DNA from: Streptomyces sp. TG1A-8
GTDB taxonomy: Bacteria > Actinomycetota > Actinomycetes > Streptomycetales > Streptomycetaceae
NCBI RefSeq assembly: GCF_030499535.1
Contig: NZ_JASTLB010000001.1
Location: forward strand, 186,001 to 250,000
Direction: 5' to 3'
Length of the DNA: 64,000 bases
The first letter of the stretch is position 1, and each line of letters opens with the position of its first letter. A program made the translations under genes and the position numbers. Shown here piece after piece: positions 30,583-43,076 of the stretch. Under the pieces are notes generated by a model that was not told where the DNA came from, searched no databases, and was given only the letters and a program-made list of their open reading frames with translations.

Positions 30583-31125
30583 ATGCCCGATTTCTCGTCA
30601 CACTTCGCCGGCTACCTGCCGGGCCTGACGCCCCATCCGGCGCCGGCCTTCCCCGTACTGGTGCAGGCACGCCATGACGACGTTCATCATCTGGCCGTGC
30701 TGCAAACCGGTATACGGGGCGGCACCGTCTCACAGTGGGCCGATCGCATTGCCCGGACGGTCGACGGTGAGCGCAGTGCCGTGGTGCTCGCCAGGGTGGA
30801 CGGGGAGCTGGCCGGGTACGCCAACGTGGCTTTGCTTCCGGAGAATCCGGACGACGGCGCGCCGAGTGGGTACTACCTGACCGGGGTGACGGTGGCGGTC
30901 CGTTGGCGGCGGCGCGGGATCGGCAAGTCGCTGACTCGGTGGCGGATGGCCTGGGCCTGGCAGCGTGCTTCGGAGGTGTGGTGCTTCGTCTCCGCGCAGA
31001 ACCGGGCCTCCCTTGACCTCCATGACGCGCTCGGCTTCGCCGAGGTGCGGCGCGCGGACAGGCTGCAGGGGGTGTCCTTCGACTGCGGGGAGGGTGTCCT
31101 CCTGCGGGCTCATCCGCCGCGATGA
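30583..31125 (+). CDS. GNAT-family N-acetyltransferase
   Basis: 180 residues. GNAT core: AVVLARVDGELAGYANVAL, GYYLTGVTVAVRWRRRGIGKSL (acetyl-CoA pyrophosphate loop RRRGIGKSL) and FVSAQNRASLDLHDALGF. Substrate unknown. Its 3' end overlaps by 16 bp the end of the convergent last gene of the RiPP operon. Its cargo could be unrelated to the cluster. Confidence 0.88.
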   Translation: MPDFSSHFAGYLPGLTPHPAPAFPVLVQARHDDVHHLAVLQTGIRGGTVSQWADRIARTVDGERSAVVLARVDGELAGYANVALLPENPDDGAPSGYYLTGVTVAVRWRRRGIGKSLTRWRMAWAWQRASEVWCFVSAQNRASLDLHDALGFAEVRRADRLQGVSFDCGEGVLLRAHPPR

Positions 31126-31712
31126 CCGTTGATGCGCTGGAGCAGCTCTGCCAATGGGACCCGGTGCCAGTCCTGTTCGACCGCCGTGAGGTCGATGCCC
31201 GTGGCCTGGGCCAGGTTGATCTCTGGGGATTCGAAGAGCCAGTCGAGCTGAGCGACCAAGCCGCTGCGCGCTGCCGTTACCTGTAGTTTTCGGCCGATTG
31301 CCAGGCGACCCTTGAAGGTGAACGGTGACCCGGTGGCGAGGGTTCCGACCACGGCCTTCAGCATGGCGAATGATCTGCGAGGACTCGTCACCGTTAGGTC
31401 GGCGTCGGGGGGGACGATGACGGTCCAGCGGTTGCGCTCCGTCAGGCCGTCGGAAAGCGGGGAGGGGGAGAGAAATCCGTCGGCGGTGCAGGAGCCGCGG
31501 AGCCAGACTGTGAGAGGGATCTCGGTCAGGCACTGCTCGATCCGTGTCCGGTCTAGGTAGCCTCCGAGGCGCGGATCCTTGAACCGGAGTTCGGAGTACT
31601 CGTCGGTCACGTCCGCCTCTCCGTCGCGGACCCGAAAGGTGCCTTCCAGGTGGGGAGCGCTCAGCAGGCGGGCAACGGCGGCCGTGAAGGTCTGCTGTGT
31701 CGGGGTCGTCAT
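31110..31712 (-). CDS. Unknown protein, last gene of the RiPP operon
   Basis: 200 residues from the ATG at 31712, right after the stop of the JmjC gene. I do not recognise a family with confidence. The middle (WTVIVPPDADLTVTSPRRSFAMLKAVVGTLATGSPFTFKGRLAIGRKLQ) resembles the hydrophobic-ligand SCP2-like fold in pattern only. No signal peptide, membrane helix or metal motif is seen. Its position in a tight operon suggests a role in processing, self-protection or delivery of the peptide product. Confidence 0.75.
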   Translation of the reverse strand: MTTPTQQTFTAAVARLLSAPHLEGTFRVRDGEADVTDEYSELRFKDPRLGGYLDRTRIEQCLTEIPLTVWLRGSCTADGFLSPSPLSDGLTERNRWTVIVPPDADLTVTSPRRSFAMLKAVVGTLATGSPFTFKGRLAIGRKLQVTAARSGLVAQLDWLFESPEINLAQATGIDLTAVEQDWHRVPLAELLQRINGHRGG

Positions 31713-31714
31713 GG

Positions 31715-32449
31715 TCAAAGTCCCAGTCGGCGGACGGCGTTGAGCAGCACGGTGTCCGGGTGTGTTTGTCCGTTCACCAGGAGTTCCGTGGCAAGAGCTG
31801 ACGGATGCGGTCTGGTGATGGTGAAGGTCAGGTGCGTCGATCGGTTCGAACTGGTCCTGGCTCGGTGCGGCCAGCCGTGTGGCAGGTACAGCACGTCTCC
31901 GGGCGAGAGGACAAAGCTTGCCGGCTCCCCCTGCGGAGCGGGTTCAAGTCCGGCGTTCGGGTTGGTGCCGCCGACTGGCCGAACGATCTCCCAGTGCTTC
32001 TGTCCTTCGAGCTGGACGGCCACCACGTGGGAGGCATCCCGGTGAAAGCTCAGCCCTCGTGACTCTGCAGGAGTGACGAATGCGTAGGACGTCGTCGCAA
32101 GGCCGAAGTGATCCTGCAGTGCGATGGTCGTGGCCCGGACGGTGTCATCGAAGTCCTCGATACGCTGGTACTTCAAGGTGTAGCCGTCGGCGACGAGCCG
32201 GCTGAGCCGGTCGACATCGATAGTGCGCTGCCGGTAACCGGGGATGTCGGTGGTGAAGTCCCGGACGGCGGGCTGGGCGCTGGACTTGACCAGCGTCAGG
32301 TAGGGCCAGTGCATGCCCGGTGCTGTGACCAAACGCAACAGCGACTCTGCGCCAAGGCATTCGGCGGGCAGGCAGCCGCGGCCGATCCAGTGGCGCTCGT
32401 TCCAGTCGTCTGAGATGCGGTGCAGCACAGCAAGGGGAAGGATTGACAT
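31715..32449 (-). CDS. JmjC/cupin-type oxygenase
   Basis: 244 residues starting MSILPLAVLHRISDDW; the frame is open further upstream but overlaps the MFS gene. The double-stranded beta-helix carries an HxD...H iron triad: LSFHRDASHVVAVQLEG and LSPGDVLYLPHGWPHRAR. The surrounding sequence fits JmjC/RoxA-like Fe(II)/2-oxoglutarate hydroxylases, which modify proteins or peptides. In this context a side-chain hydroxylation of the RiPP is plausible; that is inference. Starts 5 bp after the MFS stop and ends just before the last gene. Confidence 0.85.
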   Translation of the reverse strand: MSILPLAVLHRISDDWNERHWIGRGCLPAECLGAESLLRLVTAPGMHWPYLTLVKSSAQPAVRDFTTDIPGYRQRTIDVDRLSRLVADGYTLKYQRIEDFDDTVRATTIALQDHFGLATTSYAFVTPAESRGLSFHRDASHVVAVQLEGQKHWEIVRPVGGTNPNAGLEPAPQGEPASFVLSPGDVLYLPHGWPHRARTSSNRSTHLTFTITRPHPSALATELLVNGQTHPDTVLLNAVRRLGL

Positions 32450-32454
32450 GTGCC

Positions 32455-33690
32455 TTAATCTCCAGCCGGCGAGGTGAGTACCTGGGAGGGAAGACGGCGG
32501 AGCCTGCAGAGGTAGCCGACCAGCACCATGCCGCTCAGCACGGCGGCGGCCAGTGAGCTGCTGCGGACGCCGGCAAGCGAGCCCAGCAGTCCGCTCGCCA
32601 GCGCACCCAGGGGCATGCCCGCCACCGACACGGTCCGGAACAGTGCCATGGTGCGACCGATCATCTCGCGTGGTGCCGTGGTCATCAGCAGCGTGGAGGA
32701 GGGTACGTTCCACAGGCCGCTGGCCAGTCCCAGCGTGGCGGTCCCCAAAGCAAGCGGCATCGGCGAGTGGGCGGCGCAAATCAGCAGGAAGCCGGGAAGC
32801 TTCATGCCGATCGCCAGGGCCGCGACGTGGTGGTGGGGTGTCCCGCGGTCGGCGAGCCGGCCGGCGAGGAGATTCCCCGCGACCATGCACGCGGCACCGG
32901 CGCCGGTCAGAAATCCGAAGGCGGCTGGGTGCAGGCCGACGGAGCGTATCGACAGGAGGGGCAGCATCGCACTGTTCAGGCCGTTGCAGAAGTTGTTGAC
33001 GGAGACGCAGAGCAGGAGCGTTGACAGCAGTCCCCGGGTCCGTACGGCTCCCAGACCGTCGCGGATGTCGCGGGCCAGTGTTCGGGGTGCCGCTCTGACG
33101 GGCTTCGCCTTGGAATGCCAGTCGGTGTCTCTTGGGAGTGCTGTCACCCAGCCCGCTGCCGCTCCGAAAGTGACCACGTTCAGCAGGAAGGGCAGTGCGG
33201 AAGAGACGATGGCGAGCCAACTGCCCAGCGGCGCGGCGACGATGCCGACGGTGGACTGGGAGGCACTCAGTCGTGCGTTGGCGGCACCCAGGTCCTTCTC
33301 TTCAACGATCGAGGGCAGCAGGCTGTTGAAGCAGCTGTCCGAGACCGTCTGCAAGGTCGTGAGAAGGAAGACGAAGACGATGAGGAGTGTGATCGACAGA
33401 CGTCCGGAAAGGGCCAGGCTGCACAGGAGCGCTGCTGCCGCGCAGCGGACGCTGTCCGCGGTGAGGAACGCACGACGCTTGTCCCAGCGGTCGACCAAGG
33501 CTCCGGCCGGCAGCCCGAACAGCAGCCAGGGCGCGAAGGACATCGCCAGGACGACGGAGACCGCAGCGGGGCTTCCCGTCAGCTTCGCCGCCAGCACGGC
33601 GACCGCCGAGGTCCGCGCAGCGTCGCCGAGTCGGGTGCCCACGGCGGCGGCATACAGTTTTTCGAAGGATGCCCCGTAGGTGCGGACCAT
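32455..33690 (-). CDS. MFS exporter in RiPP cluster
   Basis: 411 residues from the ATG at 33690 (MVRTYGASFEKLYAAAVGTR), with about 12 hydrophobic segments and the MFS loop ALVDRWDKRR between helices 2 and 3. Related to the MFS_3/enterobactin-exporter type. It starts 5 bp after the TfuA stop. Likely exports the mature peptide and may confer immunity. Confidence 0.85.
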   Translation of the reverse strand: MVRTYGASFEKLYAAAVGTRLGDAARTSAVAVLAAKLTGSPAAVSVVLAMSFAPWLLFGLPAGALVDRWDKRRAFLTADSVRCAAAALLCSLALSGRLSITLLIVFVFLLTTLQTVSDSCFNSLLPSIVEEKDLGAANARLSASQSTVGIVAAPLGSWLAIVSSALPFLLNVVTFGAAAGWVTALPRDTDWHSKAKPVRAAPRTLARDIRDGLGAVRTRGLLSTLLLCVSVNNFCNGLNSAMLPLLSIRSVGLHPAAFGFLTGAGAACMVAGNLLAGRLADRGTPHHHVAALAIGMKLPGFLLICAAHSPMPLALGTATLGLASGLWNVPSSTLLMTTAPREMIGRTMALFRTVSVAGMPLGALASGLLGSLAGVRSSSLAAAVLSGMVLVGYLCRLRRLPSQVLTSPAGD

Positions 33691-33695
33691 GTCGG

Positions 33696-34493
33696 CTACG
33701 CCTCCGCCAGCATGGCACCGATGCACTCGGGTACGGGGATGAGCTCAGTGGGAGCGCTCGTTGGGGCCAGCCCCAGGACGACGTCGCGGATTGCGCTTTC
33801 GGCATCGTGCCGCTTCGCATCCCAGTGTGCCAGCTGTGGCGGGGTCAACCGGTGGAGGACGAGTTCCAGGGTGCCGGGGGCGAGGCTGCTGCCGCTTGCG
33901 AAGCACGTCCGGGCGAGTTGGCGCAGTGCGGAGTAACTGCGATCACCGAAGTAGAGTTCCCGGGCCCGGCGCCTGAACTCCTCGCAGTGCCCCGCAGACA
34001 CTCCCTCGGCGGCCAGCAGCGTGCACAGCAGATCGACGTTGACCGTGGGCGCGGTCAGACTTCGGTAATGGTCGTCGTGCAGCAGGGCCACGTTCTCGTC
34101 GGCAGTGCGCCTGCCCGTGAGGTAGTCGGTGAAGATGACGCCCAGGCCGATCATGCCCCATGGTCGTGCTTCGACTGCCCGCAGGGCTCCCATGCTGCTG
34201 CAGCCGTACAGGCGCACTCCTCGGCCGAGGGTCTCCTGGATCTCCGTCAGGCTGACAGCCTGGCCGGCGCCGAAGTACCCGTCGATCATGAGCACGGTGG
34301 TGGGTGGCGGAGTGCGGGTCAGCAGGGCGGTGAGATCACCGTCCCGGACGGGAGGAAGGATCAGGTGGGCGGCCGGTGCGGTCAGGGGGGAGTCGGCGAG
34401 GCTCGGTCCGGCGTAGATCACGAGGTCGGCTTGGTCGAACTCAGCCAGTGCCCGGGACAGGGCGGGGTCGTTGACCGGCGAAGTGTGTGACAC
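33696..34493 (-). CDS. TfuA-like protein
   Basis: 265 residues of the TfuA family. Diagnostic pieces: DLVIYAGPSLADSPL near residue 23, HLILPPVRDGDL, VLMIDGYFGAG, VRLYGCSSMGALRAVEARPWGMIGLGVIF. TfuA proteins partner YcaO enzymes to install thioamides, probably by helping deliver sulfur. It starts 3 bp after the YcaO stop, so the two are co-translated. Together they are the best evidence that this cluster makes a thioamidated peptide. Confidence 0.9.
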   Translation of the reverse strand: MSHTSPVNDPALSRALAEFDQADLVIYAGPSLADSPLTAPAAHLILPPVRDGDLTALLTRTPPPTTVLMIDGYFGAGQAVSLTEIQETLGRGVRLYGCSSMGALRAVEARPWGMIGLGVIFTDYLTGRRTADENVALLHDDHYRSLTAPTVNVDLLCTLLAAEGVSAGHCEEFRRRARELYFGDRSYSALRQLARTCFASGSSLAPGTLELVLHRLTPPQLAHWDAKRHDAESAIRDVVLGLAPTSAPTELIPVPECIGAMLAEA

Positions 34494-34496
34494 GGA

Positions 34497-35789
34497 TCAG
34501 CGCACCTTCCGTGCTTCGCGGTAGAAACGGCTGCCTATCCGGGAGGGTTCGTTGGCCGCGAACTCCAGACCGGGGACGACGACCTTGACCACCCGTGGCA
34601 GCAGCTCGTCGGTGCGCGCGCCATTGCACAGGGTCAGATCGGCGACAAGAAGCCGTCGCAGTCCCGTGTCGGTCAGACGCCGGCAGATCGTCGCCAGGTC
34701 AGTTTCGAGGTCGCCGGCCGACTGGTTCGGGATCTCGTCGAAATCGATCTGCTCCCAGTCCTGTGACCAGCGGACCGCGCGATCGTGAGCTGCCTGGTAG
34801 GTCTCGTTGCGGCGCTCCCGGTAGCGGGTGCTGAAGTCCTCTCGAGCGCCGGAAATCACGCTCAGCCGGGACTGCGCGAGTTCGGTGAGCGCCCGGGAGG
34901 CACCGATCGCCGGGTTCAGGTGGCAGCCAGCGCCGGCATTCACCAGCATCGGGTTCTCCGCGAGGCGGTCATCGCCAAGCGCGAACAGGCTAAAGACCTC
35001 CAGGGATGAGCGGAACGCGAAGAGAGTCAGGGAGATCCCGGCGTCCTCGAAGGTCCGCGCGAGATCCCGCAGTTCGGGCGGCAGTGAGTCGATACGGACC
35101 TGGAAACCCTGCCGGAGCACTTCGCCGAAGGACCGGCTGTCCCGTTCGATCAGCTCGTAGAGCGCATGCAGGGTGGCCTCAGTCAGGCAGTTGCCGGACG
35201 CCAGGCCGTCGGAGTGGCTGGCGAAGAGCCGTGCACCGCGCGCCGCGTACGGTGAGAAGACCGCGTCGGCGGGGATTCGGACCACGTCCCCGCTGACCAG
35301 GTCCCGGGTGGGAATCCATTCCAACGGTGAGTCCAGGTTCCAGCCGGTGCGAGTGTCTAGGACAAGTTCTCGGGGGTCCAGCACCTCGCCGAAGTACTCC
35401 CGTGCCCGAGTAAGGGTCATGATGGCCCCGGAGCGGCCCTGCTGCTCTCCGCAGTACCGCTCGTGGGCCTCCATCAGCGCGGAGGCCAGCGCAGCCTCGC
35501 GCGTGCGTCCCTTTCCACAGGTCACGGTGAGGTTTCCGGGAGCTGCAGTGGTCCGGTACGTGTTGAACACCGGCACGCCCAGGCGGTCGAGCCCGGTGAT
35601 GTCAGCAACCCGGGAGACGCCCGAAATCCCCCGCAGCCGCCAGGCGGCCTCGATGGAGTCGGCCAGCGGGCGGTGGCGGCCGGTGCTGGCGTAGAGCTTC
35701 TTGTCGCAATGCGGCTGTGTGTCGACCAGGACGGTTTTGAAGTCTGGGACGAGCTGGTCCAGGGACTGCGTCGTTGGGGGGAGCGTCAT
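34497..35789 (-). CDS. YcaO-domain peptide-modifying enzyme
   Basis: 430 residues from the ATG at 35789, 10 bp after the radical SAM stop. ATP-binding YcaO motifs are present: ALMEAHERYCGE near residue 107, LASGNCLTEATLHALYELIERDS near residue 190, and ASRALTELAQSRL near residue 280. YcaO enzymes activate backbone amides with ATP to form azolines or, with TfuA, thioamides. There is no cyclodehydratase partner (E1/ocin-ThiF) in the cluster and no C-terminal PxPxP, which favours thioamidation over azoline formation. Confidence 0.92.
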   Translation of the reverse strand: MTLPPTTQSLDQLVPDFKTVLVDTQPHCDKKLYASTGRHRPLADSIEAAWRLRGISGVSRVADITGLDRLGVPVFNTYRTTAAPGNLTVTCGKGRTREAALASALMEAHERYCGEQQGRSGAIMTLTRAREYFGEVLDPRELVLDTRTGWNLDSPLEWIPTRDLVSGDVVRIPADAVFSPYAARGARLFASHSDGLASGNCLTEATLHALYELIERDSRSFGEVLRQGFQVRIDSLPPELRDLARTFEDAGISLTLFAFRSSLEVFSLFALGDDRLAENPMLVNAGAGCHLNPAIGASRALTELAQSRLSVISGAREDFSTRYRERRNETYQAAHDRAVRWSQDWEQIDFDEIPNQSAGDLETDLATICRRLTDTGLRRLLVADLTLCNGARTDELLPRVVKVVVPGLEFAANEPSRIGSRFYREARKVR

Positions 35790-35799
35790 TGAGCCGCCC

Positions 35800-37209
35800 T
35801 CAGATGAAGTCACGTAGATCGGCCGCCTGGTAGGCGGATTCCTGCGGTTCCGGCTGGGACAGCTGTCCGAGCGCCAGCTGGCGAAGTGCCTGGGGATTGC
35901 GCTTGGCAACTCGGGTGAAGGCGTCGAAGGCGAAGCCGATCAACGCCTTGCGCTCATGGCACGCTGCCGGCAGCGTGCCGAACTCGCCCGCGCCGGCGGA
36001 CAGCGATCGGTGATAGCACTCCCCACCACAGACATGCTTCGCCCAACAGCTTCGGCACGGTTCGCGCTCGTCGACCCTCTTGAAGTGCTTACTGCGGATT
36101 TCGACGATTGGAAGCCCCCGGCCGATGTGTCCCATCTCGAAAGCGGGCTCCTCAATGGCGTGATGGCAGGAATACACTCGGCCATCGGGTCCGACCGTGA
36201 CCGCATTTCTGGCCGCCAGGCAGGGGTACCAGGAACTGACCGCACGTCCTTGGTGCAGGATTTTTTGGAAAAACGCACCGAAGGGCATGATGTCCAGTAC
36301 CGTCCCCTTTTCGAGGTTGTCCGTCCACCAGTCCAAGAGCTCGATCATTTCGGATTCGCCGACAGAAGTTATTCCCTCGCCGTTGTACATCGGTTGTACG
36401 TGGACCTCATTGAAACCAAGAGCAACCAGATATTTGTGCAGGGCCAGCAGAGAGGTTCCGGGCTGGCTGACCGCGCGCACCCGCCGCATCGGTGAGGTCT
36501 GGGTCTCCATCAGACGCCGAATATTGCGCAAGACGATCTTGCTCGTTGGGCGCCCCGAAAGGAGCACGCGGTTGGTGTTCAGTGCGGGTGGCCCGTCCAG
36601 GCTGACGATCAACGAGATAGCGTGCTTCTCGCACCAGGCAAGCGTCCGCCCAGTGAGCAGGGTGCCATTGGTGTACACGTTGAAGCGGACCTTCACCCCG
36701 AGTGGAGCCGCGTATGCCTCGGCGTATTCGACGCTGCGCTCGAGGATCTCGCGCTCCAGCAGTGGCTCGCCGCCAATGAAGAAGATCCGCACGGGCCTGC
36801 CAGGGTCGGCCTGGTCGAGGACCTGCTCGATGCTGGTCCTGGCCGTCTCCCAGGTCATCCCTGTCGGGACCTCGGACCCCTTCTTCTCCTTGGTCTCCAG
36901 TTCGTTGTAGCAGTACGTGCAGCCCATATTGCAGTGGTAGGTATTACCGATGACCAGTTGGCTGATGCGGGTGCTGGCATTGTCCGCCGGCACCGGGAAG
37001 GAGGAGGCGGAGATCAGATGGGTCAGCTCTTGCCACTCCTGCAGTTCCTCGGCGGTCAGGTCCGCCCCGCCATGCCCAGCCGCCGCAAATCGCCGGGCGC
37101 GCTCGACCGCGTGCGGGGGCAGGCTGGCGAATGACATCCGGTCCGGGTCGTAGAGCGTTGCCCGCGAGCCGTCGGCACTCGGGAGAACCACTGCCTTGTC
37201 GGAAGCCAT
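35800..37209 (-). CDS. Radical SAM/SPASM RiPP maturase
   Basis: 469 residues from the ATG at 37209 (MASDKAVVLPSADGSRATLY), preceded by GAAAGGTGG; a GTG 27 bp upstream is possible. The radical SAM cluster is CNMGCTYC near residue 105. The C-terminal SPASM region has the complete pattern CLAARNAVTVGPDGRVYSC, then CRSCWAKHVCGGEC and a final C in CHERK, for two auxiliary Fe-S clusters. The first about 80 residues could be a PqqD-like leader-binding domain. Relatives form thioether or C-C crosslinks on precursor peptides. Second gene of the operon, directly after the precursor hairpin. Confidence 0.93.
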   Translation of the reverse strand: MASDKAVVLPSADGSRATLYDPDRMSFASLPPHAVERARRFAAAGHGGADLTAEELQEWQELTHLISASSFPVPADNASTRISQLVIGNTYHCNMGCTYCYNELETKEKKGSEVPTGMTWETARTSIEQVLDQADPGRPVRIFFIGGEPLLEREILERSVEYAEAYAAPLGVKVRFNVYTNGTLLTGRTLAWCEKHAISLIVSLDGPPALNTNRVLLSGRPTSKIVLRNIRRLMETQTSPMRRVRAVSQPGTSLLALHKYLVALGFNEVHVQPMYNGEGITSVGESEMIELLDWWTDNLEKGTVLDIMPFGAFFQKILHQGRAVSSWYPCLAARNAVTVGPDGRVYSCHHAIEEPAFEMGHIGRGLPIVEIRSKHFKRVDEREPCRSCWAKHVCGGECYHRSLSAGAGEFGTLPAACHERKALIGFAFDAFTRVAKRNPQALRQLALGQLSQPEPQESAYQAADLRDFI

Positions 37210-37257
37210 CCGCTGCGGCCACCTTTCGTATTGCACTGCTTATGAAGCGGACGCAAA

Positions 37258-37304
37258 GGACCTCAGGCCCGTCTGTTGGGCCCTTACTGACGGGCCTGAG
37301 GTCC
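37258..37304 (-). terminator. Attenuator-like hairpin between precursor and maturation genes
   Basis: 16-bp perfect stem GGACCTCAGGCCCGTC / GACGGGCCTGAGGTCC with a 15-nt loop, 30 bp after the precursor stop and 49 bp before the radical SAM start. Partial termination here would give many more precursor transcripts than enzyme transcripts, a common RiPP device. Confidence 0.85.
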
Positions 37305-37334
37305 CTATGAAATCGGAATCATCTGGAGTGGCCG

Positions 37335-37469
37335 CTAGGCGGAGATATCGCAGATGATACCGGGACGCTCAACCTGGTTCTCGGCGTAGATCTCGTCGAC
37401 GAGGTCGCTGAGGTCGATCAGTTCGATGTCCTGCTCGACGGTCTCGGTGGGGGTAACTGCACTGGCCAT
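37335..37469 (-). CDS. Putative RiPP precursor peptide
   Basis: 44 residues. The ATG at 37469 follows a near-ideal Shine-Dalgarno (GGGAGGTG), which decides it against in-frame upstream starts. The first about 33 residues are acidic and helix-prone (EQDIELIDLSDLVDEIYAEN) as in leader peptides. The C-terminal ERPGIICDISA is short with one Cys (residue 40) next to Asp, and is the probable core. It is the first gene of a minus-strand operon coding for radical SAM, YcaO, TfuA, MFS and JmjC proteins. I know no close named relative. The core boundary is a guess. Confidence 0.85.
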   Translation of the reverse strand: MASAVTPTETVEQDIELIDLSDLVDEIYAENQVERPGIICDISA

Positions 37470-37890: not shown

Positions 37891-37974
37891 TCACGGCCGT
37901 ACCTCTTCCAGCTCCCCGGCGCCCAGGCCGATGCTCCGGGCGACCACGTGCCCGGGCCGCGGGGACAGGTCGAC

Positions 37975-38290
37975 GGCCTGGCCCTGGGTGCCGGCCCTCT
38001 CGGCCTTGACGAGCGCCTGGAATCCCGAGGCCACCGACGGCTTCTTCCCGGTGCTCTTACCAACCTTGATAACCAGCTTCCCCGCGATGTCCGACCCGGC
38101 ATTCCATTGGCCTTGAGCGCGAGGGCCAAAGGTCAGCATGTCGTCGTGGGACCTTGGGTCGGCCGCCGCGGTTGCCTCTGGCCGCGGCGATCTTTTGGCC
38201 CTCCAGCGCCTTCCCCGGATGCAGTTGGGCTCGATCTGGGCGGCGGCCAGCGCGGCGAGAAACTTCGCACCCATCCCATTCGGGGCGTAC
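37975..38290 (-). pseudogene. Serine recombinase (resolvase) C-terminal remnant
   Basis: Pieces in three frames read KFLAALAAAQIEPNCIR, EGQKIAAARGNRGGRPK, DDMLTF, LALKANGMP and DIAGKLVIKVGKSTGKKPSV. In order they reproduce the end of the catalytic domain, the GGRPK linker and the DNA-binding helix-turn-helix of Tn3-type resolvases. At least three frameshifts. It sits at the left edge of the RiPP island. Confidence 0.7.
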
Positions 38291-38639
38291 ACCGCGGAGG
38301 GGAGCTGCCAGCGGCAGGGGCAAGCGGACTGCCAGGGAAATGACGAGCATCGTGCGGCCCGTCGCTGTACCGACCCGCTGATCGGCGGTTGACCAACTCG
38401 CGCTGGCTTCTCATGAGCAGGGCTTTGCCACAGTTCGGGATCCGGTCGTTCAATCTGGCGGACCGAGCTCGAGAACCGGGGTGTCGGCAGGGGACAAGTT
38501 CGGGCGCATCCGGTGCCAGCGCACTGGGTGGCGCCGGCGCCCGGTACTGTCGCGGGCGACATCGACGCCGACCTCCACCACCAGCTCCGGCACAACGAGT
38601 GTGATGTGCAGCTTCTCGCGCGAGCCCCACCCTGCGCTG

Positions 38640-39407
38640 AACGTCCAGCCGGTCCAGGGGCGGTCTCGTGCCGGGAACGCAGCACCAGCCCCGGGATGCC
38701 CTGGTGGTTCTTGATCTCGTCCAGGGTGTTCTCGATCTCCCACCGCTGGGCATAGAGGGCGGCGAGCTCCTCGGCCGGTGCATGGTCGGGGTCGAGGACG
38801 GTGGTGATCAGCCGGTAGGCGGCGCCGTCGCCGCCGCGTGGGCCGAGGGTGTACTCAATCGCCCGCACCCGCTCGGGGTCCGCGCGCCGGTAGTGGTCCC
38901 GCGCGGCGACGATCTCCGACAGGTAGGAGCCGTCGGCGAGGGCTTCCAGGACCGGCAGCACTACGGTGCTGCGGACCCGCCAGAGCAGGTCCGCGCCGCC
39001 CGCTTTCGCGGCCCGCCACAGGTCGAAACCGCAAAAGCCCCGGTCGGCGAGTACGAGCATGCCCTTCGTCAGCGCGGGGAACAGTCGCCTGGCCAGAGCG
39101 GTCTCATGGAGCGACAAGGGGCCGCCCTCGGCCGCGAACACGGCATGGGTACCGCACTCGGCCAGGGCCGCCGCCCTCGCCTGCGGATACGCACTGCGGC
39201 CCTGCCCGCGACTGGTACCGGGACGCCCGAAGCACTGGGCGTTCGCCGGGGTGTCGGGGACATCGAAGACCGTCCCGTCCACCGCGACCAGCCGCCACCG
39301 CCGGTACCAGGCGCCTTGCGTCCGCGCGACCGCCACCGGCCGGCACACCCGGGCGAACAGGGCCCGCAACGGCTCCGGCCCCAGCCGCACCTTGGCCCTG
39401 CACGAGA
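38640..39407 (-). pseudogene. IS4-family transposase remnant
   Basis: A 250-codon open stretch matches Streptomyces IS4 transposases: RRWRLVAVDGTVFDVPDTPA (Asp), LADRGFCGFDLWRAAKAGGA (Asp), AALYAQRWEIENTLDEIKNH (YREK-like Glu region). The N-terminal domain is lost where it meets the relaxase relic near 39,407, and the C-terminus breaks off near 38,650. Core residues survive but the protein is incomplete. Confidence 0.85.
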
Positions 39408-40470
39408 ACACCGTGGCGGTCGACACCCTCTCCACCTTGTACTTCATGGAGGAGATGTCCGCCCGGCTCGGGTGGGCGTGGGAGCCACGCGAGGTGACGC
39501 CCGGCCGCCGGCCCGTCATGGAGATCGCAGGCCTCGACCAGCGGCTCATCGGCTGGCAGTCGACCCGCCGCCAGTAGATCGAGGACGCGCTGCCCGTCCT
39601 CACGGCCAAGTACGAGGAGAAGCAGGGGCACGCGCCGGGGGAGCGGGCCGCCTACGCACTGGCTTGCCGGGCCGCCGACCAGACGCGCCCGCCCAAGCGC
39701 ACGGAGCTGCTGTAGCTGACCGAGCTGCGCGAGCGATGGCGGGACTCAGCGATCCGGACCTACGGTGCCGACGTTGTCGACCGGCTTGCGGAGCGGGCGC
39801 GGGTGCGGCCGGTGGTCGACATAGCGCTGCCGGCCGCCGACGTCGTCGCCGTGGTGTATGTGATGTGCGGTGCGTTCAAGCGCCATCACCTGCTCGCCGA
39901 AGCGCGCCGCTACTTCTCTACATCCTGCGCGGCTGGCCCCACCAGACGGGCCTGGACGACCAGATCGTCCAGGCGGTCGTCGACGACTACACCCACTCCG
40001 TCGGCCGGGGCCGGATGATGACGGCTGACTTGCGCGCCCTGTACACCCGCGACACCGAGGACCAGACCACGCTGCGCCCGCTGACACGCAAGCGGACCGC
40101 CCCACCGTACGAGCGGGCCCGCCTCGCCGCCGACGCATTGACCGCCCGGGTCCACGCTGCGCGGCGTGCGGACCGTCTGGGCTCCCGCACCCGGCCCCGC
40201 ACCGTCGCCGTGCCCGCCGCCTTGGTCGCATCCGCGGCCTTTCCACACTGGCCGGGAGACCGGCCGCGTTCCAGAGCAGACGACCGACGTCGACACGGCG
40301 GAGCAGACCGGACGCTCGCCGAAGCCGGCCTCGCCAGGGTCCAGGAAGGCGCCGGGGAACGCGCCCTCACCCACGGCCCCGACCGCAGCCCACCCCGGCG
40401 ACCGCCCCGCCGCCGCACACCCAGCAGCCCGGCACCCAGCACACACCGGGCCGGACCACAGGAGGAGTCG
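39408..40470 (+). pseudogene. MobF-type relaxase remnant
   Basis: Reads FMEEMSARLGWAWEPREVTP, MEIAGLDQRLIGWQSTRRQ, then a TAG, IEDALPVLTAKYEEKQGHA, RAADQTRPPKRTELL, another TAG, LTELRERWRDSAIRTYGADV, and after frameshifts VDDYTHSVGRGRMMTADLRA. This is the middle part of the TrwC/TraA-like relaxase of actinomycete conjugative plasmids or ICEs. The N-terminal histidine triad is absent and there are several stops. It shows that a conjugative element once occupied this site. Confidence 0.8.
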
Positions 40471-40639: not shown

Positions 40640-41584
40640 GCCGGGGAGGCCAGCCCCACGGCATGCAGCACCTGTTGCGCCGGGCCGCCTGGGATGCCGA
40701 GGCCGTCCGCGACGACGTGCGCGAATACGTCGTCGAGCACCTCCACGACGATGCCGCGGTGCTCGTCGTCGACGAGACCGGCGATGTGAAGAAGGGCATC
40801 CACACCGTCGGGGTCCAGCGCCAGTACACCGGCGCAGCCGGACGGATCGAGAACTCCCAGGTCGCGGTCCACCTCGTCTACGCCGGCGCACGGGGACACG
40901 CGGCAGTCGACCGCGAGTTGTACATTCCGCGCTCTTGGACGAGTGATCTGGATCGCTTCCGGGCGGCGAGGCTCAGCAGGGACACCGTCTTCGCGACCAA
41001 GCCGGACCTGGCCCTCAGGATGATCGAACGGTTCTGGGATGCCGGCCACCGCGTCGGCTGGGTCACCGGGGTTCCGCGCCGATGCCCTGGTGAAGAAGGT
41101 GCCGAAGCGGGCATGGCAGAAGCTCTCGGCCGGATCCGGCGCGAAGGGACAACGGTTCTACGACTGGGCCGTCGTCGACCTCATCGACCCGACGCCAGGC
41201 AGCCACCAGCTCTTGATCCGCCGCAGCCGCACCACCGGCGAACTGACCTACTACCGCTGCCACTCACCCGAACCGGTGCCGCTGACCACCTTGGTGAAGG
41301 TCGCCGGCTCCAGATGGCGGGTGGAAGAGACCTTCCAGGCCGGGAAAGGGCTGGCGGGACTCCACGAGCACCAGGTCCGCCGCTACCGCTCCTGGATTCG
41401 TTGGACCACCCTCGCGATGCTCGCCCACGCCTTCCTCGCAGTAGTTCGCGCCGACGAACACGTCCGCAGACCCGCCCCGGACGGCCTGGTCCCGCTGTCC
41501 TGCAACGAGATCCAGCACCTCTTCATCACGCTCACCGTCCAGCCTCGCCACAACGCAGCTCACCGGCTCGGCTGGTCGCACTGA
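40640..41584 (+). pseudogene. IS701-family transposase relic (A)
   Basis: Lacks the first about 80 codons; begins around PHGMQHLLRRAAWDAEAVRD. It keeps VLVVDETGDVKKG and the following domain to GHRVGWVTG, then about 40 codons including the second Asp are deleted with a frameshift at 41,075. It resumes ADALVKKVPKRAWQKLS, GSRWRVEETFQAGKGLAG (Glu region) and ends NAAHRLGWSH. Its right end (…CTGGAGTA) abuts the TTAG used by the next element. Confidence 0.85.
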
Positions 41585-41678
41585 CGGCGGCTCCATCAGC
41601 AGCGATCCCTCGCCAGCCATTACCGGCGACAAGCCGTATCCCCGACCTGAAGATCGCGATCTACAGCTGGAGTATTAG

Positions 41679-43076
41679 TACTCCAGCAGCGGTTCGTGTC
41701 CTGAGCTGGTGGTTGTCGTTGTCCTGGTATGGAGGGGATGAGTGAAGCCGCTTGCTGGGCCGGCGAGTTGGAGTTGGTGTTCGCTCGGGTGGCGGGCAGG
41801 TTCACTCGGGCGGATCTGCGGTGGCGGATGCGGGACTACGTCCGTGGTCTGCTGGGGCGGGCGACACGCAAGAACGGCTGGCAGCTTGCGGAATGGGCAG
41901 GTCACCGCACTCCGGACGGCTTTCAGCGGCTGCTGAACAGCAGTGTCTGGGACGCGGACGCCCTGCGTGACGACGTCCGTGCCTACGTCGCCGAACGGCT
42001 CGGACCGGGCGGTGTGCTGATCATCGACGACACGGGATTCATCAAGAAGGGCACCACCTCAGCCGGGGTCAGTCGGCAGTACACCGGCACCTCAGGAAAG
42101 ATCGACAACTGTCAGATCGGCGTGTTCGGCGCCTACGCCACCAGCTCAGGCCGGGCCTTGGTGGACCGGGAGCTCTACCTGCCCAAAGCCTGGACGTCCG
42201 ACCGTGACCGCTGCCGGGCGGCCAAGATCCCCGACGGGCGAGGCTTTGCGACCAAGGGGGAACTGGCCCGGGACATCGTCCGCCGCTGCCTGGCCGCCGG
42301 CCTGCCGGCGTCGTGGGTGACCGCGGATGAGGCCTACGGGCAGGACTGGCACTTCCGCCGCCTGCTCGAGCAGACGGGCGTCGGCTACGTGGTGGCGGTG
42401 CCCAAGTCCCAGCAGATCAAGTCCCTGGCCGGCATCTGGCGCATCGACCATCTCATCGATGAAGCACCCGATGATGCCTGGCAGCGGCTGTCCTGCGGCG
42501 ATGGGGCGAAGGGCCCGCGGATCTACGACTGGGCCGGGGCCAAGTTGCCCGCCAACATCATCTTCGATCCGGATCCGCCGACCCATCACCGGTGGGTGAT
42601 GGCCCGCCGCAGCCTGTCCGACCCCGAAGATGTGGCCTACTACCTGGCCTACGCACCCGTGGGTGTCGAGATCGCCGAGCTGGTCCGCATCGCCGGCTCC
42701 CGCTGGGCGATCGAGGAGTGCTTCCAGGCCGCGAAGAACGAGTGCGGCCTGGACGAGTACGAAGTCCGCCGCTATGTCGGCTGGTATCGGCACATCACCC
42801 TGGCCATGCTCGCCCACGCCGTCTTGGCCGCACTCGCAGCACAAGCCCAGGCCGGCGGGGAGGCAAAGGGGGCTGCAGAAACGGATCAGCCACCGTCCCG
42901 CTCACCGTGGCAGAGATCCGGCGGCTCCTGGACACTCTCCTGCCCCACCCACGAGCCGACCGCGATCCCATCACCCACGCACTGAACTGGTCCGCCTGGA
43001 GAAGACACCGCCAGGCCATCGCCCGCCGCTGCCACTACCGAAAACGCACCTCAGGCCACGAACCGCTGCTGGAGTA
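41679..43076 (+). mobile_element. IS701-family insertion sequence (B)
   Basis: 1,398 bp with long, almost identical terminal inverted repeats (TACTCCAGCAGCGGTTCGTG at the left, its complement at the right) and a 4-bp target duplication TTAG on both sides (41,675-41,678; 43,077-43,080), fitting the YTAR rule of IS701. It inserted into the TTAG that already flanked relic A. Confidence 0.9.

Follow-up and report, generated by a model that had tools for sequence, protein, structure and literature searches.

The genome sequence of Streptomyces sp. TG1A-8 (NCBI RefSeq assembly GCF_030499535.1) was found to carry what is almost certainly a real, rare and conserved gene cluster for a ribosomally synthesized and post-translationally modified peptide (RiPP). 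It lies within the 64,000 nucleotides analysed here (positions 186,001 to 250,000 of contig NZ_JASTLB010000001.1), referred to as the window. All seven genes placed at 31110-37469 by the original prediction, which was made from the sequence alone, are present on the minus strand at the coordinates it had named, and an eighth gene that it had missed converges on them. From the precursor end, the features are:

37335..37469, minus strand: precursor peptide gene, 44 amino acids (aa), MASAVTPTETVEQDIELIDLSDLVDEIYAENQVERPGIICDISA, with nine other family members; ratio of nonsynonymous to synonymous substitution rates (dN/dS) 0.16-0.34 in 6 pairs of 4 DNA sequences
37338..37361, minus strand: proposed core GIICDISA after Arg-Pro, from an inferred cut site, with Cys40-Asp41 at 37347-37352
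37256..37306, minus strand: hairpin between the precursor and radical SAM genes, followed by TTT, z -4.57
35800..37209, minus strand: radical SAM/SPASM maturase, 469 aa from ATG, the open frame extending to a GTG at 37236
34497..35789, minus strand: YcaO, nearest to thioamide formers, without a cyclodehydratase partner gene
33696..34493, minus strand: TfuA, PF07812 at 95 bits, 51 bits with the solved TfuA 6xp8, SMGALRA kept
32455..33690, minus strand: MFS exporter (Pfam MFS)
31715..32449, minus strand: JmjC_2/cupin oxygenase, PF08007 at 70 bits, H136, D138 and H195 invariant in 5/5
31110..31712, minus strand: 200-aa protein, conserved in 5/5 loci, matching no family
30583..31125, plus strand: convergent GNAT acetyltransferase (PF00583), overlapping the gene for the 200-aa protein by 16 nt

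The Pfam matches (Radical_SAM with SPASM, YcaO at 237 bits, TfuA, MFS and JmjC_2) agree with the predicted content, and no Pfam family matched the precursor or the 200-aa protein. The enzyme genes are tightly packed, as predicted, with spacings of 2-10 nt. The precursor and maturase genes are 125 nt apart, and this gap holds the strong hairpin, which is probably a partial terminator giving an excess of precursor; among six loci folded, five have a hairpin 3' of the precursor at z <= -2.7, the value for the sixth (L008, -0.65) not being significant. DNA similarity to related loci begins 16-20 nt before the precursor ATG wherever a 5' end is present (three loci); on the far side it stops at 30731-30761 in 4/4 loci, within the GNAT gene, counterparts of which are 54-63% identical in all four comparison loci. 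Because the similarity runs into this gene and each of the four loci has a counterpart, the block is taken to comprise eight genes. The GNAT may protect the producer itself or N-acetylate its product.

Three Kitasatospora genomes, namely Kitasatospora humi (L002), Kitasatospora sp. MAA4 (L003) and a third (L017), carry the block with the same gene order, and a Streptomycetaceae metagenome-assembled genome (MAG; L007) carries the same operon cut at the 5' end. Protein identities between the window and these relatives range from 56% to 86% across the six enzyme, transporter and 200-aa protein genes. The precursor, on whose conservation the original prediction had staked its case, stands beside the enzymes in 3/3 relatives with an intact 5' end (L002, L003, L017).

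A profile search with the maturase yielded 10 loci in 84,980 species genomes. The maturase family was present in 4/394 genomes of the strain's own bacterial family (its own and three of one other genus), in 3/70 genomes of that other genus (the same three) and in 1/396 genomes of a phylum sample. Its own genome was the only carrier among 392 genomes of its genus, and also the only match when 295 genus genomes were searched with the precursor alone. Two genus matches (L019 and L020, E 2e-63 and 1e-61), 28-31% identical over part of the maturase, fall outside the family, as do L010/L011 at 23% identity. When plasmids were searched by tblastn with the maturase, 140 of 72,556 records matched, all at <60% identity; no member was seen among the 25 matches listed, which are 27-31% identical, 14 being annotated as the QhpD homologue PeaB. 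In a protein collection, from which the 8000 candidates sharing most words were scored, at least 52 relatives stand above an E-value gap (1.8e-77 vs 2.5e-45) among the best 120 of 470 matches.

The ten precursors of the family share the motif Q-x-[ED]-R-P-G-[IV]-[IL]-C-[DE]-[IT], and the dN/dS values indicate purifying selection. Each has a single Cys, four or five residues before the end, followed directly by Asp in one and by Glu in nine. Six listed precursors of a divergent clade, typified by L008 (see below), keep RLVTACEI, with C-E-I in 6/6; in this set P0140 duplicates another member in shorter form and P0138 has a second Cys near the N-terminus. The C-[DE] pair is thus found in 16/16 sequences across the two clades.

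The maturase most likely starts at ATG 37209, since matches to relatives begin there, at query residue 10. The full sets of CxxxCxxC and SPASM cysteines which had been predicted were confirmed by alignment of 35 of the 52 relatives with the window's own protein: the CxxxCxxC motif (102/106/109) and seven further Cys (339, 357, 394, 397, 403, 407 and 426) are invariant in 36/36 members. A radical SAM/SPASM protein with these cysteines is a feature of the ranthipeptide type, as is a precursor Cys followed, on its C-terminal side, by a residue that could act as acceptor. The QhpD or PapB models rank top in 7/7 maturases scanned, and the nearest solved fold is that of CteB; QhpD and PapB couple Cys sulfur to side-chain carbons of Asp/Glu. 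As the window maturase does not pass the curated ranthipeptide models (PapB 168 vs a cut-off of 340 bits, SCIFF 117 vs 425), it may work like the ranthipeptide enzymes and is not named as one of them. The original prediction did not state what this enzyme does. A Cys-based thioether in the product appears reasonably likely; that its acceptor is the adjacent Asp/Glu is possible, at somewhat below an even chance.

The YcaO superfamily carries out both azoline and thioamide reactions. The window YcaO scored 268 bits with the model for thioamidation of McrA glycine (below its 365-bit cut-off) and, among solved structures, 152 bits with MJ1094, 60 with 6ci7 and 48 with the azoline former TruD. It ends in ...REARKVR, without the proline-rich C-terminus typical of azoline formers; no cyclodehydratase partner was matched by Pfam among the eight genes of the block. 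TfuA aligns with 6xp8 and keeps the Ser within SMGALRA; a Ser-Lys pair of TfuA has been described (PMC13185837), and its sulfide delivery is reported as hydrolysis of a ThiS thiocarboxylate (PMC13185837; PMC13063428). Adjacent ycaO and tfuA genes, a precursor open reading frame (ORF) and their retention in relatives, with no azoline-type partner, are the features of a thioamidated RiPP, and the predicted thioamidation by YcaO-TfuA is very probable on this sequence evidence. Thioviridamide-like thioamitides have a thioviridamide-type core and enzymes for aminovinyl-(methyl)cysteine; no Pfam match to such an enzyme was obtained among the eight genes, and the window precursor ends in GIICDISA.

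HxD...H is the metal triad of JmjC_2 oxygenases (PF08007), and it corresponds to the invariant H136, D138 and H195 of the window protein, the best PDB matches of which are the ribosomal oxygenases MINA/NO66. Hydroxylation of the core by this enzyme is favoured, with less confidence than the thioether. For the 200-aa protein only weak cupin-like fold matches were returned, from a low-confidence model (mean predicted local distance difference test score, pLDDT, 65), and no relation to the JmjC protein of the block was found.

The second TfuA gene of the same genome lies in a sister cluster (L027, C1:371001-390000; genes L027:8227-15059) with the order precursor, two JmjC_2, S9 prolyl oligopeptidase, YcaO (42% identical), TfuA (39%) and PhyH, the JmjC identity being 34%. 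Among 246 genomes searched with the sister precursor, two other Streptomyces genomes (L031, L032) have a similarly arranged cluster in which TfuA is followed by a third JmjC; their gene content was judged by tblastn only, and PhyH had no match there. No relative of the maturase was found in L027, L031 or L032 (best E 0.42), and all three sister precursors, ending ...HERPMVIGVINEA once and ...HSRPMVIENINEA twice, lack Cys and keep Arg-Pro and x-[IV]-I. Split transketolase genes lie directly upstream of the sister precursor (L027:15139-16846; L031:41-946; L032:13249-14154); the precursor-adjacent piece, which may be part of the sister cluster, has counterparts of 75-76% identity in the two other genomes.

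Maturase and C-terminal Cys occur together in three cluster types and are both absent in one; two types have both JmjC and Arg-Pro, and the Alicyclobacillus locus L006 has neither. From this co-occurrence, which covers few cluster types, the maturase is tentatively taken to act on the Cys end of the precursor, and JmjC and a peptidase on its Arg-Pro/Ile part. The S9 peptidase of the sister clusters, whose precursors have the Arg-Pro in common with the window's, suggests a cut after Arg-Pro giving GIICDISA; a core starting at this point is an evenly balanced proposition, and GIICDISA is perhaps that core.

In an Actinomycetota MAG, contigs L008 and L005 both end within the maturase gene, where they share a 120-bp overlap of 95% identity, and were for that reason read, without being joined, as one locus. 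Its order is a 68-aa precursor (...RLVTACEINANGG), maturase, a different GNAT, YcaO and TfuA; the contig ends soon after, and a JmjC gene may lie beyond. The GNAT-domain protein between maturase and YcaO (L005:533-1609) is not recognisably related to that of the window, and was rejected as its homologue (28% over 43 aa, E 0.55). The aligned part of the two Cys-bearing precursor families pairs their ICDI and ACEI ends. The locus of the Firmicute Alicyclobacillus suci (L006:9197-15624), another distant relative, contains TfuA, maturase (34%), YcaO, a 31-aa ORF, a hairpin (z -9.81), ThiS-ThiF-rhodanese, JAB and MFS, and has integrase/transposase pieces upstream. The 31-aa ORF has a good ribosome site and one Cys (NACNQDAPLKK). 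The ThiS/ThiF and JAB genes beside YcaO-TfuA fit the delivery of sulfide by TfuA from a ThiS thiocarboxylate. In the genome that holds the window, five ThiS matches were obtained elsewhere.

From these data we infer the following chemistry, order of steps and cut site. The hairpin after the first gene would provide the 44-aa precursor in excess, and the radical SAM enzyme would bind its acidic leader, probably via its own N-terminal domain. The maturase would then link the sulfur of Cys40 to an acidic side-chain carbon, most likely of the next residue (-2.016 Da), like PapB and QhpD, the acceptor being the beta-carbon of Asp41, or the gamma-carbon of Glu in relatives. TfuA would free sulfide from the host ThiS thiocarboxylate, and YcaO, using ATP, would thioamidate the backbone of the core at one or more positions (+15.977 Da each). 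JmjC would hydroxylate a side chain in the stretch shared with the Cys-less sister precursors (RP-x-[IV]-[IL]-x-x-[IT]); the O-to-S shift must be resolved from this hydroxylation (+15.995), 17.8 mDa apart. A prolyl peptidase from outside the block would cut after Arg-Pro to leave about eight residues, the MFS pump would export the product, and the GNAT would acetylate it as protection or as a last step. The degrees of confidence expressed here are judgements and were not computed. A thioamidated RiPP whose core also carries a Cys thioether is given about an even chance; a single core uniting a thioamide, an adjacent Cys-Asp/Glu thioether (a seven- or eight-membered ring) and a hydroxylation, with the Cys-acidic pair and the radical SAM gene gained or lost together on a YcaO-TfuA-JmjC chassis, is a tentative proposal.

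Several observations weigh against this scheme. The eight-gene block encodes no recognisable peptidase, so that the pathway, whose genes are as predicted, cannot be called complete; it is also without ThiS/ThiF, and the 200-aa protein has no role in the steps proposed. The 7/7 maturases scanned are well under the QhpD (453) and PapB (340) cut-offs, and the nif11 model ranks above PapB in P0048 and above QhpD in the Alicyclobacillus protein. The natural motif of PapB is CX3D, and within PapA CX4D is reported to be rejected and CX2D mostly so (PMC8172795); a thioether between adjacent Cys and Asp would close a small ring of seven members. Alignment of the two Cys-bearing precursor families is weak (hhalign P 0.015, probability 3%), the match between sister and window precursors is not significant by profile comparison (P 0.069), and the 31-aa ORF of Alicyclobacillus, lacking C-[DE], is a candidate precursor only. 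In a Myxococcaceae MAG, a 36% identical maturase (L004:10001-11368) has no YcaO/TfuA match within 17 kb and no RiPP enzyme among 9 ORFs scanned, so the maturase family may not go hand in hand with thioamidation in every case; L009 (3.3 kb) likewise holds a maturase and no YcaO/TfuA match in that stretch (maturase identity 36-38% for L004 and L009).

Among other explanations, the one with most weight keeps the RiPP cluster and changes the Cys chemistry: the link could be a sactionine to an alpha-carbon, a C-C bond, or a thioether reaching six residues back to Glu34. It is rather unlikely, as the distant clade has Met or Leu six before the Cys yet keeps Cys-Glu-Ile in 6/6, and QhpD or PapB models are best in every maturase scanned. 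The Cys, four or five residues before the end, together with a small carrier, an exporter and an acetyltransferase, would also suit a precursor that acts as a scaffold and from which the modified Cys-acidic end is released as a small metabolite derived from amino acids, in the way that 3-thiaglutamate is reported to be made on a 50-residue scaffold peptide (PMC9016710). Residues come after the Cys, however, and the sister precursors hold similar surrounding residues without it, which makes a scaffold improbable.

Still less probable is a YcaO that turns Cys40 into a thiazoline with TfuA as an accessory: the core does have a single Cys, and the superfamily is capable of the reaction, but TfuA is present without a cyclodehydratase partner, the YcaO is nearest MJ1094 and the thioamidation model, and the sister clusters pair YcaO-TfuA with Cys-less precursors in 3/3. 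Modification of a larger cellular protein, or decay of the genes, with the 44-aa ORF being something else, could be argued from the lack of a peptidase and from the transposase genes that adjoin the cluster; it is very hard to reconcile with open frames in relatives, purifying selection, the conserved C-terminal Cys and the hairpin layout. These transposase genes (DDE_Tnp_1, DDE_5) lie upstream, on the precursor side, at 37891-39609 and 40663-42985. G+C content dips to 61% at 36-38 kb, vs 65-72% in the remaining 2-kb windows.

Returning to the proposed thioamidated and thioether-bearing peptide, its cluster resembles those of thioamitides and thiovarsolins in having YcaO-TfuA with a short precursor gene, with backbone thioamidation expected, and differs in adding a radical SAM/SPASM enzyme and JmjC_2 and in a different, one-Cys precursor. 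Ranthipeptides (PapB/freyrasin, CteB) and QhpD offer the closest maturases, by profile (PapB, QhpD) and solved fold (CteB), with a Cys donor and an acidic residue C-terminal to it; unlike ranthipeptides, the window precursor has one Cys rather than several and an adjacent acidic residue rather than CX3D, the maturase is under the curated cut-offs and YcaO-TfuA is added. The sister Streptomyces cluster differs by its own S9 peptidase and by the lack of both Cys and a maturase relative. The main text of Malit et al. 2021 (613 families) reports TfuA, YcaO and radical SAM genes together in Burkholderia thailandensis, Sphaerisporangium/Microbispora/Herbidospora, Bradyrhizobium, Desulforegula and archaea, some families with stand-alone PqqD, P450 or B12 domains, and its authors suggested a combined modification (PMC8120280). 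The co-occurrence is thus already known; neither this precursor family nor a RiPP with both thioamide and thioether was found in the open-licence papers searched (supplements excluded), nor was TfuA combined with JmjC. The same main text contains no 'Kitasatospora', 'cupin' or 'JmjC', and Kitasatospora is not named in that of Santos-Aberturas 2019 (74 networks; PMC6511847).

Peptides seldom carry backbone thioamides, and radical-made thioethers are likewise uncommon in them. The small size of the block and the presence in the same genome of a sister cluster without the radical SAM gene make the target of each enzyme testable by expression. If true, a thioether between Cys and the adjoining Asp/Glu would show in natural use the n=0 spacing that PapB is reported to accept in vitro.
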